Assembly (NCBI GenBank): GCA_949317995.1
Contig: OX439041.1
Span: forward strand, 3,474,501-3,538,500
DNA length: 64,000 bases
Direction: 5' to 3'
From: Acholoe squamosa
Taxonomy: Eukaryota; Annelida; Polychaeta; Phyllodocida; Polynoidae
A program made the position numbers and the translations under genes. Position 1 is the stretch's first letter. Each line of letters begins with the position of its first letter. This document shows, one piece after another, positions 54,267 through 63,725 of this stretch. The notes beneath the pieces are model-generated. The model was not told the origin of the DNA. It saw only the letters and a list, made by a program, of their open reading frames with translations, and searched no databases.

Positions 54267-54815
54267 TTGATAGCTCAATGGACCGAGCTGGAGATCCGAG
54301 ATGGCATATTGTGTAGATGGAAGACTACTTCCACCGGCAATAAGCTATTGCAAATAGTGATTCCCACCTCAATGAGAAGGGATATCATGTATTATTGTCA
54401 TGGACACCAAACGAGTGGCAATTTTGGGAAGAAAAGATCCATAGAACGTCTGCAAAGACGATATTACTGTCCCGATCATCGTAAAAACATGGCAGGACCC
54501 GGCCTAGGCAAGCTACCCTTGTCCCAGGAATTGTTTGGTGTCAGATTTGCTCGAGTACCAATATACCTCATTAGTGGATTTAAAACGACCCCCAGAGAGA
54601 ATACTTGTATGAAGGTCGTCACAGACTACTATACTAAGTACACTCGGGTGTTTCCTCCTCCTAATCACAAAGCCGCTACAAGTGCCAAGGCATTTGTAAA
54701 AGACTGGGTGCTACATTTGGGCATACCCCTCATGATGCACAGTGATCAAGGTAGAGAGTTTGAGTCAGAGTTATGGCAGGAAATGTGCAATTACTTAGCA
54801 ATATGTAAGACCTAG
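54267..54815 (+). pseudogene. pol: Integrase fragment, degraded element
   Basis: HGHQTSGNFG (finger), GKLPLSQELFGVRFAR and HSDQGREFE match element A closely. The second finger half is deleted (about 15 residues missing before KNMAGPG), the first catalytic Asp is replaced by Leu (PIYLISG), and the Glu region and the C-terminus are absent. Confidence 0.88.
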
Positions 54816-57026: not shown

Positions 57027-58265
57027 TTATGGGATAGACCTCCCCAACTCATCCTTGCCCATTTGTTTGAAAGTTTCATATAACTCTATGTTTCTATCTA
57101 AAACACTCAAGTTGTTCCATGTCTGGGCACATAGAACCTTAGGTGAATTTTCATAAGTTGCGCATTTAATAATATCATACATTAACACCAGTGCATCATT
57201 AAGCCTAGTCTGCCTGGCTGGCACTTTACAAAATTCTGGTTTTCTAGATCTTTTATATGCCAAATTCTTTAGATGGAATTTTCTGTGATTCACTAACATG
57301 GGCAAGGATGCATTTCTATGCACTTCCTCAGTAGGTGTTAGAAAATGTACTTTTAGACACGTCTTAAGGCACTTATTTTGGAATCGCTGTAATTCATCCA
57401 ATAAATTCACATTTGCACTATTGTATATAACATCACTGTAGTCAATTACAGGTAAAATGTGGGATTTGTATATTCTCAATAATACTCTAGGGGACATTTA
57501 TATTTCCTCACTTTATATAGGAGAAAAAATTTATAACCTAGGTTCCGTAACATGTTGCGTACATGCATTTTAAAGTTTAACACACGGTCCACAGTGAAAC
57601 CTAAATATTTGTAGGATACAACATTCTGTAGAATTTTTTCCATTGAGTTCAATCCTGGGTCCTGGTAATCTCGACAGTTTTTTGGAAGATGCAAAAACCA
57701 TAATTTTTGTTTTAGATTCATTAATTGTTAACTTATTGTAAGATGACCAGTTATAAAAAATAGCTAGAGCTTGTGTCAATTGTTGAGACAAAATTTCCAA
57801 ATTTGGACCTGATACATATAATACTGAATCATCAGCATAAAGCAAGGTTTTATGTGTGTCCGTGGTATTTATACAATCATTTATATATATATAGTAAAAA
57901 GAACAAAGGACCCAAAATTGAACCCTGTGGCACTCCACACCTCAATGGTGCATGCCCAGATCTTATATTATTAGCGACTGTGCACTGTTGTCGAATAGAC
58001 AGGTAATTTTCAATTAATGTGAGGCTCCTATTTCTAATACCGTACATTTCCAATTTTCATAATAAAACATCATAATTTACACTATCGAATGCTTTTTTTA
58101 TATCAATAAAAGCAGCTCAAGTAATATTCTTGTTGTTTCTATTTTCAAGTATGTCGTCAACCAAAATACTAATTGTATCGAGCGTAGATTTACCCTTTAA
58201 GTAACCACCTTGATTTTTTGAAATAATATCATGATCATCTAGGAATTTTGAAATATGAGTATGCA
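57027..58265 (-). pseudogene. LINE ORF2: RT core and C-terminal region, frameshifted
   Basis: Read in shifting frames, the minus strand shows GYLKGKSTLDTI, FIDIKKAFDSV (first catalytic Asp), CGVPQGSILGPL, LLYADDSVLYVSG (catalytic YADD near 57835), NKLTINESKTKIM and a C-terminal domain ILPVIDYSDVIYNSANV to GRSIP at 57027. Frame changes occur near 57.6-57.7 and 57.95 kb, and stops lie around 58.06-58.12 kb. Reverse transcription from the nicked target would be its role. Confidence 0.88.
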
Positions 58266-59027
58266 TCAAATGTTCCAAAATCTACCCTGGCACAGGTAGG
58301 ATGCTGATAGGCCTAAAATTAGAAACATTGGTTTGATCACCCCCCTTTGGCAGAGGAGTGACTGTGGCAATTTTCCATTTTTTTGGTATTTTTTTTTTTT
58401 TAAGATGAGTTTAATTAATCTAATAAATCTTGCTCGGTTGTGCAAGACTGCAGCCTTGAAAATGTTAGTTGGTAAGTAGTCAATAGATGAAGACTTCGAT
58501 ACATCAATGTTTTTTATCACCTCAATAATTTCAGCGTCAGAGAAATCAAAATCATTCATGTCTACATCATTATGTATACCATTAAAACGCCATTCTGTGT
58601 TATGTGTTTCAGCTAGAGTAGGCCCAATATTGGCGAAAAAATCATTTATAAAAGTTGCAGTCTCATCTGGAGGGATTACATTGCCATTATCCAATAGGTT
58701 TATAGCTTTTGAGTCACCCTTTTTTGACGGAACAATTTCCTTCATAATCGCCCAAAACCTTTTAGAGTCATTGATATGTTCATCACACACATTATTAAAA
58801 TAATTATGTTTGGCAACTTCAATTTCATTATTAACAGCATTTCTTAAATCTTTGGCCTGGCGCCAATCTAAAATAGACTTGCTATTCCTGGCATGTAAAA
58901 GTGCATTATTTTTATCAGTAATTCTTTCTATCAAATAATTGGTAATCCAAGGTTTGACATGGTCCTTCACTCTAAAACATTTTACTGGACACATAACATC
59001 CAACATCCTTTTAAACATATTTTCCAT
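58266..59027 (-). pseudogene. LINE ORF2: region between endonuclease and RT
   Basis: KPWITNYLIERITDKNNALLH, DSKRFWAIMKEIV and TATFINDFFANIG are the conserved linker phrases of CR1/Jockey-like LINEs; DYLPTNIFKA begins the RT N-terminus. A frame slip at the poly-A/T run near 58390 replaces the expected K-G-G and F-R-P-I-S blocks, which appear in another frame. Between 59028 and 59157 the frame from the endonuclease is also lost. Confidence 0.85.
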
Positions 59028-59157: not shown

Positions 59158-59856
59158 TTACAAGAGGCAGTTGCCTTGATTACCTTGTACCGGTAAATGA
59201 TCTGATAAATGAATGTTCAAAGGTCCGGATGATGTAATATTTACACAATTAGTAAAAATAAGATCAATACATTTATTGAAACCTGAAGTGGTAGTAACAG
59301 TTTTGACCAGTTGAATTAGATTAAAGTCGGAGAAAGATTCATACAGATTTTTCTCGTTAGAATTTACTAGGACATCAACATTAAAATCACCTAATACAAA
59401 TATGTCGTAGGAATCTCGATCATCAGTTTGTAGAAAAAGCGCTTTATTTGTATCACAAAAATTCACAAGTGAACCACTAGGGGGTCTATAAATATTACAG
59501 ATTATACACTTTTTCATTGTACCCTTAACAGAAAAAAGCCATTGAATTTCAATATCTGGATTTGATCTATTCAATTCTTTAAACCTAATTATAGAGCATG
59601 AAACCTGTTCATCAACATGAGCGCACAAACCTCCACCACGGAAAATACTAATTCTGTCTAGTCTATACATGTTGTACCTGGGAAAGGTATATAAAAAATC
59701 CATGTCAGTGTCATTCAACCAAGTTTCAGATAGAAGTACAATATCAATATTCAAGTTTGACATTTCATGTTTAATGGCAGTCATTTTTTTACGAACTGAT
59801 CTAGCATTTAAGTGTACCAGAGAAAAACCTCTCTTAAGTTGAGGAAAATTATTCAT
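59158..59856 (-). CDS. LINE ORF2 N-terminus: APE-type endonuclease
   Basis: Starting at the ATG at 59856, the frame has all the AP-endonuclease signature blocks in order: HLNARSVRKK, LSETWLND, IYRPPSGS, VLGDFNVDV and HLSDHLPV. The enzyme nicks target DNA for target-primed reverse transcription. It ends in a frameshift near 59158 rather than at a natural terminus; no catalytic residue is obviously lost. Confidence 0.9.
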   Translation of the reverse strand: MNNFPQLKRGFSLVHLNARSVRKKMTAIKHEMSNLNIDIVLLSETWLNDTDMDFLYTFPRYNMYRLDRISIFRGGGLCAHVDEQVSCSIIRFKELNRSNPDIEIQWLFSVKGTMKKCIICNIYRPPSGSLVNFCDTNKALFLQTDDRDSYDIFVLGDFNVDVLVNSNEKNLYESFSDFNLIQLVKTVTTTSGFNKCIDLIFTNCVNITSSGPLNIHLSDHLPVQGNQGNCLL

Positions 59857-60299
59857 TTACGGTATTGAAAATTAATGGGACTGGAGTTGTTGAGTGGTCT
59901 GAACCCATACCAGTTTGACATGTCAAAAATAGAAAAAGAAAATGCCCAAAACCCCAACATCCCTCCCTACATGGACCTCGGTTCTTCTGACCGCCCATGA
60001 ATATATTATATTACTCAGGCATGACCAAAGATATACCAAGCCCCGTAGAAAATATTAATAATAACGACAATAACAATAGGCGCTACAATATAAGACATGA
60101 TAAACTTTTCGTGGACTTATCACTATTATACAGTATTACAATAGTTGATTATACAGTATTACCGGTAATGTACAACCACATATCAATATTTAAAACACAA
60201 ATTTAGACAATTATGCATAGAGCAAATTCAATCTAAACAAGGTATTTTTCAAATATAAATGTAATAATAAAGAATTAAAGAAGAAAGTTCATTCTGGCT

Positions 60300-61445
60300 C
60301 TATGTAGAGGCGGGTGGATCCGGTTTGTTGGGGTTAGGGGTTGCACCAGCTTCAGTTTCAGTTGGCTCACCTCCCTCAGCTAGATCTTTTTTCGCTTCAT
60401 CATCCTTATGTTCATCATTCTCAGCTTTCTCGTCAGCTTTAGCTTTATCATCGCCTTCTTGCTCCTCATCACCTTCCTCGTCATCTTGCTCGTTATCATT
60501 ATCACTTGTGTCCCTTTTTAGCTGTGTTCTGATGTGCTCCAGGATTCTGCCATGTAGATTTTCACCTTTTATATTGTCCTGCGTGCACATATCATGCTGA
60601 CCTAGGTGTAGACCCGCCCCCCAAAGAGGGTGGAAAGAAGCCTCATATAGGTGGGCGTCCTGTGTGTCGAGCAATAACTGCTTGAGATCTGGTGAGGAGA
60701 ATTTAATCATATTGAACTTGTACAACTGGTTCTCTGCATCACGAGCCCATTCTGTTGATTGTTTCAACTTTTTCCCTTCAGCCATTATTTCATATGGATC
60801 ACTTAGACTCATAATTTTGTCTCTATGGTTTTTTGTGCCACACACCTCTGCCTTTTTGAACTGGTAGGCTTGTTCAACAGATGAGAATTCTCTGTCGTAC
60901 TCATCGATTATTTTGCAAGGGTACAGATTAGAAAGTCTATTGTGATGGGACCTGAACATGATTCCGTCAGGTGTGGTGGCAGTGGTTGCTAGTTCCAGGT
61001 TGACTTCTGGAAATGGAAGATTGATCAATTGGTGGTGCGGGTAGACCTTCTTATTGATAATCACCGCTCTTTGACGTAAGCGTACATCCATACCTTTGTT
61101 CTTGGCGAGGAAATAAATCGCTCTTAAGTCCAGGAACTGTCGTCTTTCAGTTTCATTGAGCTCATCCCCTACTGAGACGTTTCTCCAGTCATTCTGACCC
61201 TTAAGATTCTTCAGACACTTAAACAATTTACCCTTTGACTCGAAATCTTTGAATACAACTTTCACAGACCGTGGCTTTTGTTTACGGCCATGGGCGCCGC
61301 CATCTTGGTTCCGCTGCGTCATACCTAGCCGCTCTGCGCTTTGGACAGTTTCGTACCCAAAGCCTACCGATGTATCAGAGAAGAGATTTACAATTGCTGT
61401 GCTCAGATCTTCATTTACCATTTCTGTGAGTCCTTCAATCACCAT
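60300..61445 (-). CDS. LINE ORF1 second part: RRM-like region fused to a NADAR (YbiA-type) domain
   Basis: Residues 1-140 from the Met at 61445 resemble the RRM and C-terminal parts of LINE ORF1 RNA-binding proteins (RIMVIEGL; SVKVVFKDFESKGKLFKC; YFLAKNKGMDVRLRQRAV). Residues 162-310 (nt 60516-60962) match the NADAR fold family: LSNLYPCKI, the FSSVEQAYQFKKAE block with its conserved Glu191, IKFSSPDLKQLLLDT, LYEASFHPLWGAG with Trp-Gly 275-276, and the closing GENLHGRILEHIRTQL. The tail 312-381 is very acidic, then Pro/Thr-rich. NADAR proteins cleave N-glycosidic bonds (riboflavin intermediates; ADP-ribose on guanine in DarT1-NADAR). Fusion to ORF1 is the unusual point. The frame is intact to its stop at 60300. 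Confidence 0.88.
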   Translation of the reverse strand: MVIEGLTEMVNEDLSTAIVNLFSDTSVGFGYETVQSAERLGMTQRNQDGGAHGRKQKPRSVKVVFKDFESKGKLFKCLKNLKGQNDWRNVSVGDELNETERRQFLDLRAIYFLAKNKGMDVRLRQRAVIINKKVYPHHQLINLPFPEVNLELATTATTPDGIMFRSHHNRLSNLYPCKIIDEYDREFSSVEQAYQFKKAEVCGTKNHRDKIMSLSDPYEIMAEGKKLKQSTEWARDAENQLYKFNMIKFSSPDLKQLLLDTQDAHLYEASFHPLWGAGLHLGQHDMCTQDNIKGENLHGRILEHIRTQLKRDTSDNDNEQDDEEGDEEQEGDDKAKADEKAENDEHKDDEAKKDLAEGGEPTETEAGATPNPNKPDPPAST

Positions 61446-61466
61446 GATTCTCTTCTTTTCTTGTCT

Positions 61467-61901
61467 TTATAGCGCACTGAGCGTATCGTCATGTCTTGAC
61501 AGTACTCGCGTTGTAGCCATAGCTGTCACTGTGTGTTGTTTAATGGAGTCCTCTGTCGCTTCTAAGGTAGTTGTGACACCAGTCAGCTGATCGGTATGTG
61601 AGCTCAAACTTTCTTGAACGAGTCTTAAAGTCTCTGCAGTGGTGGTCTGATTATTATTTATTTTTGTGATGTTGTCATTTATACCCTGCAGGGTTTTTAA
61701 GATACCCTCTGTGACTTTTTCTTGTGCTGTCATTCGATTTCCTAGGGCATTGACAGTGTTGACAATCTCGTTGTTTGTGGCGCCAGGTTTCAAAAGCTTC
61801 TTTTCTCTCATATTGACGGTGTGTCGTCCCGGAGATATTAACTCAGGGGTCCCTCGGGGTGTGGATACCTTTATGTCCTTATCTCCGTAGTATCTGTACA
61901 T
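61467..61901 (-). CDS. LINE ORF1 first part: coiled-coil N-terminus
   Basis: From the ATG at 61901 a 144-residue segment is rich in Thr/Glu/Leu heptads (TLQGINDNITKINNNQTTTAE; LSRHDDTLSAL), the trimeric coiled-coil region typical of ORF1 proteins. It ends at TAA 61467-61469, but the same frame continues without another stop into the RRM-like part eight codons later (RQEKKRIMVIEG). The stop is therefore best read as a nonsense change splitting a ~533-codon ORF1, though termination and re-initiation at 61445 cannot be excluded. Confidence 0.75.
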   Translation of the reverse strand: MYRYYGDKDIKVSTPRGTPELISPGRHTVNMREKKLLKPGATNNEIVNTVNALGNRMTAQEKVTEGILKTLQGINDNITKINNNQTTTAETLRLVQESLSSHTDQLTGVTTTLEATEDSIKQHTVTAMATTRVLSRHDDTLSAL

Positions 61902-63725
61902 TTAATGAGGGTATTCAATTGACTTTTCTGTGGTTGATATGATGTTTTGTACTCCTCTTCATCAATTGTTCATCAAATTAAAATCGCATTACTTATTTGG
62001 CCACAACAAGCACCAAAGCGCAGAAATGAGTTTTCGTCACAGACGCCTCCGACAGAAATGAAATTCTGTTCATGTAATTTTGCAAAGCATCATCGATACA
62101 ATATTTATTCTTGGTAGACCATGATACATTATTATTCAATGTCCTGACCTAAAATAATTACATTTCCAGCATATTTATCTAAATTTATTGCAATTTTTAG
62201 TTTTTGTCACAGACGCCTCATTTCAACATTTTTCCCCCCAAAAAATCAGTTAATAAGTTACACAAATTATCATATAGATTTAAACAGTACTGGTGTTTGA
62301 TGTGAACACCAGCTAATAAGCCAGTGCAGGCTTATCACCCAGGGCAATCACCAGCAAAAATGTCTGTGCCAGTGCAGTCTTATCACCAGGAATTACCAAA
62401 CCTGTCTGTGGCCTTACTTGAGCCATGATGTTTTAATCATTTAATTCATATACATACTACACTAGAATAGACTAGAAATAAAGAATCATTTATTTAGATA
62501 GCCTACAGACATCTCAAAATGTACCTCACATATGTAACATTTTGGGGAGTTGAATTTTGGTTTTTGAGACTTAGCTTGTATCTGCAGCAAACCAGCACTT
62601 TCATTTATTTACCATCAAAACCCCTCTAGGGGCCCTGCTCAACACAGGTTATAAGAACAGTGAGGATACTTTTTAAGCATGGAAATTTAAGGTGTAAAAA
62701 AAGTGTTACATATGTGAGGATGCTCACAGTTCGATATTATAACACATGTGTGAAAGACAGTTGAGGAAGGGACATGGAAAAGTATTTTTAATAGATAGCT
62801 ATGACCTCTCACCAAAGGCAAAATAGGATTATCACACTCTAATACTGCCTAGCTTAACAATAGATAGGTGGGAATGATGGAAAATTGGACTAAAAAGGGT
62901 ATTTTTGGTTTAACTCATCAAATTATAGGCCGATATACATAAATTTGCCCTCTGCTTAAAGCTCAAGATGTTTTCTATCAGATGTGACTAAAATAATGAA
63001 GAATAGTGGTCTTTTTTTTTTACTGTAGCTAAAATCCTCTCATAATAGGCACAAACATTGCTCAGTGAATTTGCCCATATAAGTAAGGACTGATGCGCAC
63101 TCCAATATTATTCTAGTTTAGTGACTAGTATAGTGAATAGTATTCGTTATGTAGTGCCTGCTGTTAATACATTGCAGTCATATAGCTCCTATAACTGCTG
63201 ACACTAAATTTTGGGGTTTCATATCATAGAGACTGTGTGCAGTTGTAGGGCCTTAAGAAATGGCCTCAAGGGCCTCAGCCTCTCATATGTAATACAAATA
63301 CATCAAAAGGATATTCGTCCTCTCAGTGGTTAGGCGGGGGGTGATGGCTTTCTTGCACTTGAGCAGTTACTGTAAAAATCCAGCTCAAAAGCCTGTGGTG
63401 GACTTTAGAAGCTGATTTTGGGGACTTATTTTCTCAGTTTCCTTTATATTCTATTACAATAAAACCTGCTCATAAGCCTGGGCAGAGTTTGAGCAAATTC
63501 GAGGAGCCGGTTTTAGTCAAAAATCAGAAAATAAAATTGGCTTACAACCAGGGTTTTATGGTAAAAAAATAATGATTTTAAAACGTCAATAACTGGACGT
63601 GTTACCATTGCATGCAGCGTTAGGAGTGTAAATTCTTGTGCTATTCTTATGCCGGAGGGCATCAGACGGGGCAAGATTTCTGCATACTAATGGTCCCTTT
63701 GCGTCATTCATGACATTATTTCTTT
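61902..63725. other. Non-coding region with dispersed motifs
   Basis: Two TTTTCGTCACAGACGCCTCA-type copies (62030-62050 and 62201-62220, both +) and two GTTAYRTATGTGAGG copies (62523-62539 minus, 62704-62721 plus). No gene supported. Confidence 0.6.

Follow-up and report, generated by a model that had tools for sequence, protein, structure and literature searches.

LINE ORF1 proteins are usually viewed as RNA packagers, and the locus described here raises the question of what a NADAR domain does on one of them. The window, by which we mean the whole analysed stretch of 64,000 nucleotides (3474501-3538500 in a genome of 1.48 Gb and 63 contigs), carries on its minus strand a LINE copy with ORF1 followed by ORF2.

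Structure of the LINE copy in the window

The ORF1 frame (60300-61901, minus strand) comprises 534 codons including the final stop and is interrupted by a single in-frame TAA. An APE endonuclease and a reverse transcriptase (RT) are encoded in ORF2 downstream of ORF1, which identifies the element as a LINE. Its features are, in window coordinates:

61467..61901, minus strand: N-terminal part of ORF1, 144 codons plus stop, probably a coiled coil (weak coiled-coil-like Pfam matches)
61467..61469, minus strand: in-frame TAA interrupting ORF1 of the window copy (read from the sequence)
61002..61445, minus strand: RRM-CTD of ORF1, human LINE-1 ORF1p-like (residues 1-148 of the 381-codon part)
60501..61001, minus strand: NADAR domain (residues 149-315 of the 381-codon part)
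60873-60875, 60852-60854 and 60642-60644, minus strand: codons of the NADAR residues E191, K198 and E268 (E43, K50 and E125 of 8bau)
60300..60500, minus strand: C-terminal tail of ORF1, acidic and disordered (sequence; pLDDT <50 from residue 318)
59857..60299, minus strand: spacer between ORF1 and ORF2, 443 bp
59158..59856, minus strand: first piece of ORF2, APE-type endonuclease (PF14529 1.9e-8, PF03372 1.1e-7)
58266..59027, minus strand: middle piece of ORF2 in a different frame (tblastn against ORF2 of lineage I loci)
57573..58407, minus strand: RT pieces of ORF2 (tblastn against lineage I RTs, 37-41% identity with most loci)
57027..57721, minus strand: C-terminal pieces of ORF2 in overlapping frames (sister-family homology as far as about 57327)

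The RT lies in two frames, one with in-frame stops within 57718-58407 and the other, containing YADD, at 57573-57902. Because of the TAA in ORF1 and the frameshifts and stops in ORF2, the window copy is a dead non-LTR retrotransposon (LINE).

On the plus strand of the window an LTR-type integrase fragment is found at 54267-54815 (Integrase_H2C2 4.7e-8; rve 1.1e-7, 32.5 bits against a cut-off of 32.6). At about 62030-62220 (minus strand), 5' of ORF1, a GAGGCGTCTGTGAC(A/G)AAAACT-like stretch occurs twice, about 170 bp apart, and is perhaps a 5' UTR repeat.

ORF1 is an RNA-packaging protein with a C-terminal NADAR domain

The C-terminal domain of ORF1 reaches 80.6 bits against the NADAR profile PF08719 (cut-off 35.1) and has the YbiA fold. 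The region in front of it resembles the RRM and CTD of L1 ORF1p and is folded like an RNA-binding module, and the segment before the RRM gives weak coiled-coil-like Pfam matches. The window ORF1 belongs to the LINE-1-type RNA-packaging proteins, with a probable coiled coil, RRM and CTD, and has a NADAR domain at its C-terminal end. A preliminary description of this DNA had already placed a minus-strand ORF1 with RRM-like region, NADAR and acidic tail upstream of an ORF2 with APE endonuclease and RT, and profile, fold and coordinates confirm this layout; the match that it proposed to look for in the NADAR/DUF1768 family is significant, and the coiled coil that it named is probable, given the weak matches in the N-terminal part.

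A chance match or a lone fusion is ruled out by the profile score together with the NADAR loci elsewhere in the genome that are linked to endonuclease and RT (EN/RT). A DarT1-linked NADAR of the BC4488 type was rejected as well, as the Asp in place of E125 is not seen in the window.

NADAR-LINEs occur in three ORF2 lineages

A NADAR profile search of the source genome gave 3224 first-look candidates, 150 of which were scored; all 150 are above the cut-off, and the window copy is not among them. Two of them, L001 (184 bits) and L002 (169 bits), resemble ordinary host genes. In these two host NADAR genes the domain lies within one open frame; they are 63% identical to each other and close to bacterial YbiA-like proteins.

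From the other 148 scored matches 28 long loci were taken with their flanks, chosen for a spread of scores and for long open frames. EN/RT lies downstream on the same strand in 28/28, 0.35 to 3.5 kb past the NADAR. This contradicts the possibility, left standing in the preliminary description, of a fusion present in one copy without ORF2-linked relatives. The best RT match at L146 comes from a different element, but a lineage III-like endonuclease frame adjoins the ORF1 of L146. In addition, P0001-P0013 are protein rows without genomic context, and the end of P0002 looks frameshifted.

The NADAR-ORF1 fusion occurs in three ORF2 lineages:

Lineage I: window, L009-L012, L014, L018-L020, L024-L028, L143-L145, L147-L150
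Lineage II (L1/Tx1-like): L013, L017, L021
Lineage III: L015, L016, L022, L023, and L146 by its ORF1 and endonuclease

RT scores are 183-665 bits within lineage I for near-whole RTs (62-256 for fragments) and 651-686 bits within lineage III; across lineages, with three seeds, they are 25-89 bits. ORF2 of L021 (lineage II) scores 253 bits against human L1 ORF2p and lineage II is therefore L1/Tx1-like. ORF2 of L023 (lineage III) has 95 bits to L1 and 70 to R2, that of L018 (lineage I) 46 bits to R2 and 31 to L1. The Tx1 clade (L1 group) was rejected for the window element: its EN/RT queries gave no tblastn match at E 1e-3 against L013, L017 and L021, and lineage I, with L018, reaches 31 bits to L1 against the 253 of L021. 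The RT of the window element may resemble that of CR1/L2 (Jockey group).

For lineage III the RTE-X assignment is a guess by analogy. No RRM is visible in its ORF1, which has an SGNH-like domain after the NADAR (L023:1259-3529, P0010-P0012); SGNH esterases occur in RTEX ORF1s according to the available text of PMC3905857. For a model of the relative P0012 (mean pLDDT 62), the top Foldseek matches are platelet-activating-factor acetylhydrolases (7.3e-7), and 8bau ranks 8 (3.4e-6).

In several lineage I families ORF1 and ORF2 are separated by one or two additional, middle ORFs, giving three-/four-ORF LINEs:

L012:3440-5087, middle ORF (oriented coordinates)
L014:3661-5053, middle ORF (oriented coordinates)
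L018:2883-4052, middle ORF (oriented coordinates)
L144:2236-3138, middle ORF

The middle ORF of L018 weakly resembles SGNH (PF13472, E 0.0025, 18.8 bits against a cut-off of 32.9). A Pfam search with those of L012 and L144 gave no match, a PDB sequence search with one lineage I middle ORF gave no SGNH match, and inspection of the lineage I middle ORFs by eye revealed no GDS serine; any SGNH/GDSL likeness is weak at most.

The NADAR domain descends with the reverse transcriptase

For 14 lineage I families the NADAR and RT trees, with the RT row of the window cut to its in-frame part, have 9/11 splits in common; the best of 10000 relabelings shares 5 and none reaches 9. Both trees place the window copy next to L147 as its sister. 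Because of these common splits, we conclude that the NADAR has long been inherited vertically together with the RT in the window's lineage.

In a quick NADAR tree, built with 12/37 bacterial and 14/31 viral rows after thinning and without P0002 and P0009 (both counted in the residue tallies below), the LINE I, LINE III and P rows lie on one side of a branch with an SH-aLRT of 98 and the host, bacterial and viral rows on the opposite side. Recent capture from the host genes L001/L002 was rejected, as this branch groups them with the bacterial and viral rows. L007, a Tx1-like NADAR on a long branch, falls outside the LINE I/III/P side in the free tree. A constrained tree with all LINE rows in one clade is 2.76 lnL higher than the free tree and is not rejected (p-AU 0.647), and neither is a tree that separates LINE I and P rows from LINE III (p-AU 0.287). 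Swapping of ORF1 between LINE lineages has been proposed (PMC4120745, in the text available) and would explain a NADAR in several of them.

The NADAR domain is under purifying selection

The window's sister family consists of L143 and L147-L150, five copies chosen for an open ORF1 of 463 codons. The 5' start shows the same motif in 5/5 copies. At the 3' end L148-L150 have an AATAAA-containing A-rich tail, L143 has the same AATAAA at the edge of the retrieved stretch and L147 lacks it. Pooled over the five copies, dN/dS is 0.048 for the NADAR, 0.067 for the RRM-CTD and 0.071 for the N-terminal part, values in which low dN is favoured because the copies were chosen for the open 463-codon frame. 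For ORF2 it is 0.06-0.07, with stops masked and in four of the five copies (L149 left out).

Four diverged pairs, in which synonymous sites are saturated, give the same picture at the protein level: NADAR identities are 71, 55, 61 and 48% against 59, 52, 36 and 35% for the upstream ORF1, the pair L020/L026 accounting for the 61 versus 36%, and in 4/4 no other part of ORF1 is as well conserved as the NADAR. Near-identical pairs of other families have few NADAR changes, with ratios of 0 to 0.51 or none countable. The comparison of dN/dS across copies that had been suggested beforehand finds the NADAR under purifying selection in the sister family.

These results bear on the simplest alternative, a NADAR captured by chance and without any role in the element. 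Such a passenger would fit the dead state of the window copy, with its stop in ORF1 and frameshifts in ORF2, but dN/dS of about 0.05, the conservation in diverged pairs, co-descent with the RT, retention of the catalytic residues (see below) and presence in three ORF2 lineages make it very improbable, and we reject it.

Within the sister family, L147 and L150 have near-identical ORF1 (dS 0.05-0.15) and diverged ORF2 (dS 0.65), a pattern suggestive of recombination or a template switch among members of the family. In L148 (1-133, 4977-6574) the NADAR-LINE lies inside a 34-bp satellite array; a 27-bp stretch with a variant unit is common to both flanks and may be a target-site duplication. None was found at L149 and L150, where the longest shared stretches are 6 and 5 bp.

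The catalytic residues are kept and the ADP clamp is lost

According to the available text of PMC11543638, E43, K50 and E125 (E88, K95 and D171 of E. coli C7 NADAR) matter for in-vitro hydrolysis of guanine-ADPr and/or rescue. The K95R mutant of the E. coli protein retains in-vitro activity, E88A (E43) alone has a minor in-vitro effect and E88Q is inactive. The same source gives R79, Y84, W89, R93, D130 and W133 among the ligand contacts, with E43 and E125 at the distal ribose; R79 contacts the pyrophosphate. The residue numbering of 8bau was fixed on these residues in our alignment.

The window NADAR has E191, K198 and E268 at the places of E43, K50 and E125, and W233 and W275 at those of W89 and W133. 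K225, a lysine, takes the place of R79, and there is a gap at Y84. The preliminary description had asked whether a conserved Glu and Trp line the pocket. In the alignment E191, W233 and W275 do occupy such places (E43, W89, W133), whereas the contacts of R79 and Y84 are absent.

The same holds for the LINE-type NADARs as a group. Among 30 LINE-type rows E43, W89 and K104 are each kept in 30/30, K50 is K in 27, R in 2 and Y in 1 (P0013), and E125 is Glu in 29 and Ala in 1 (P0009). R79 is kept in 1, replaced by Asp in 14, by Lys in 11 and by others in 4 (acidic in 15/30); Y/F84 is present in 0/30, with a gap in 25; R93 is found in 3/30, D130 in 20/30 and W133 in 19/30. The reference set of 70 rows is made up of 2 host, 37 bacterial and 31 viral NADARs. 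It lies close to the host NADAR, and is biased towards the host type, because the bacterial and most viral rows were retrieved via host-NADAR patterns; in it R79 is present in 68/70, Y/F84 in 70/70 and W133 in 70/70. Reference rows retrieved by LINE queries (L094 and L140-L142, the latter three chosen out of 268 phage records) have R79 in 3/4 and F/Y84 in 4/4.

As judged from these alignments, LINE-type NADARs retain the catalytic centre and lack the ADP clamp. Since R79 and Y/F84 are lost and W133 and R93 are variable, ADP-ribose binding may be lost too, and the loss of the clamp argues for an altered substrate.

Proposed function of the LINE NADAR

We regard the NADAR of the LINE ribonucleoprotein as a long-inherited N-glycosidase that is probably active. 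Our leading reading of the locus, plausible though somewhat short of probable, is that of a dead LINE copy whose ORF1p bore a NADAR N-glycosidase acting on a ribosyl bond at a nucleic acid or nucleotide during retrotransposition. ORF1p would coat the element RNA and the NADAR would be held on the RNP, where it could hydrolyse N-glycosidic ribosyl bonds on nucleic acids or nucleotides met in the course of retrotransposition. In this way (ADP-)ribosyl adducts, which would block reverse transcription, might be cleared from guanines of element RNA, cDNA or target DNA. With the ADP-gripping residues lost, recognition of the substrate would probably rest mainly on ribose and base, or on RNA bound by the neighbouring RRM-CTD, and not on canonical ADP-ribose. 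The interpretation in the preliminary description is partly supported: the ADP-ribose eraser that it proposed is possible, but with R79 and Y/F84 of the clamp lost, an eraser working in the canonical mode becomes less likely.

The domain could also read rather than erase, as a non-catalytic binder of RNA, nucleotides or ADP-ribose marks that aids RNA packing or chromatin targeting. The pocket is remodelled (R79 and Y/F84 lost, W133 variable), the RRM-CTD next door is folded as RNA-binding modules are, and since E43 and E125 both contact the distal ribose they could be kept for binding; the minor in-vitro effect of E88A points the same way (PMC11543638, available text). However, it is the residues tied to catalysis that are kept in three ORF2 lineages while ligand contacts drift, and we consider a pure binder rather unlikely.

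Small molecules or RNA caps might instead be the substrate: soluble ADP-ribose derivatives, NAD, NAD-capped element RNA or riboflavin-type ribosyl intermediates in place of nucleic-acid adducts. Riboflavin-pathway intermediates are substrates of YbiA, for viral NADARs an action on soluble ADPr derivatives has been suggested (PMC9503650 and PMC11543638, available text), and the riboflavin N-glycosidase model TIGR02464 gives the window NADAR 71.1 bits, under its cut-off of 73.7. That the domain is fused to an RNA packager speaks for a polymer-bound substrate, the pyrophosphate-contacting R79 has become acidic in half of the LINE-type rows, and for animal RNA viruses macromolecular targets are favoured in what is available of PMC9503650; on this evidence we hold such substrates to be unlikely.

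Returning to the N-glycosidase on the RNP, a wider version, which we put forward as doubtful, is that an old class of ORF1p N-glycosidases, inherited vertically and with a specificity of its own (Glu-Lys-Glu retained, clamp gone), is common to several LINE lineages and serves as RNP-borne counter-defence or repair against host ribosyl adducts on element RNA, cDNA and target DNA. In molluscs, DNA ADP-ribosyltransferases that target guanine, clam CARP-1 for example, could be the opponents; PMC11209040 describes, in the text available, CARP-1 and ADP-ribosylation at N2 of guanine in DNA in six edible clams. All NADAR/YbiA proteins assayed in the available text of PMC11125620 hydrolysed guanosine-ADPr. 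Here a conserved domain, of an enzyme class known to erase guanine ADP-ribosylation, is inherited with the RT and as strongly selected as the RT itself. If the proposal is true, this would suggest that retrotransposons are opposed by (ADP-)ribosylation of nucleic acids or by a related mark, and would give some animal NADARs a role, eukaryotic NADAR roles being called unclear in the same portion of PMC11125620.

Comparison with known systems

Compared to YbiA and the P. nicotianae NADAR (8bau), the LINE NADAR is without R79 and Y84, has variable W133 and R93 and is fused to an RRM-CTD. With the type II LINE ORF1p (human L1 ORF1p; CR1 and L2 lineages in PMC4120745, available text) the window ORF1 shares the RRM and CTD with a probable coiled coil before them, but it has the NADAR as an extra C-terminal domain; NADAR, YbiA and DUF1768 are all unmentioned in the main text of PMC4120745.

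A YbiA-type NADAR in ORF1 of several Crassostrea gigas Tx1 LINE families (from Repbase) is in print (PMC12477816, available text), and the idea of NADAR-bearing LINEs is therefore known. That text also places a NADAR in Pol of Ectocarpus Gypsy elements, and its authors suggest processing of the RNA intermediate. The YbiA-type NADAR in a LINE ORF1 is common to the oyster elements and ours, but the window ORF2 is not L1/Tx1-like. Lineage II (L013, L017, L021) may be of the same kind as the oyster elements, a likeness drawn from its L1/Tx1-like ORF2 and not from direct comparison. Selection, co-descent and clamp loss are absent from the available text of PMC12477816. Our searches of the open-access literature yielded no other report of NADAR, DUF1768 or YbiA in a retrotransposon, and NADAR is absent from the main text of PMC10294476, a survey of LINEs in bivalves. 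What is new against this literature, where we found none of it, is the NADAR in non-Tx1 LINEs, its co-descent with the RT, the measured constraint and the loss of the clamp.

In invertebrate RNA viruses, too, a NADAR is attached to the replication proteins of such an element: it is part of their polyproteins (PMC9503650, available text) and is proposed there to remove host ADP-ribosylation. The fold matches, and the difference lies in the carrier, a viral polyprotein there and the LINE ORF1p here.
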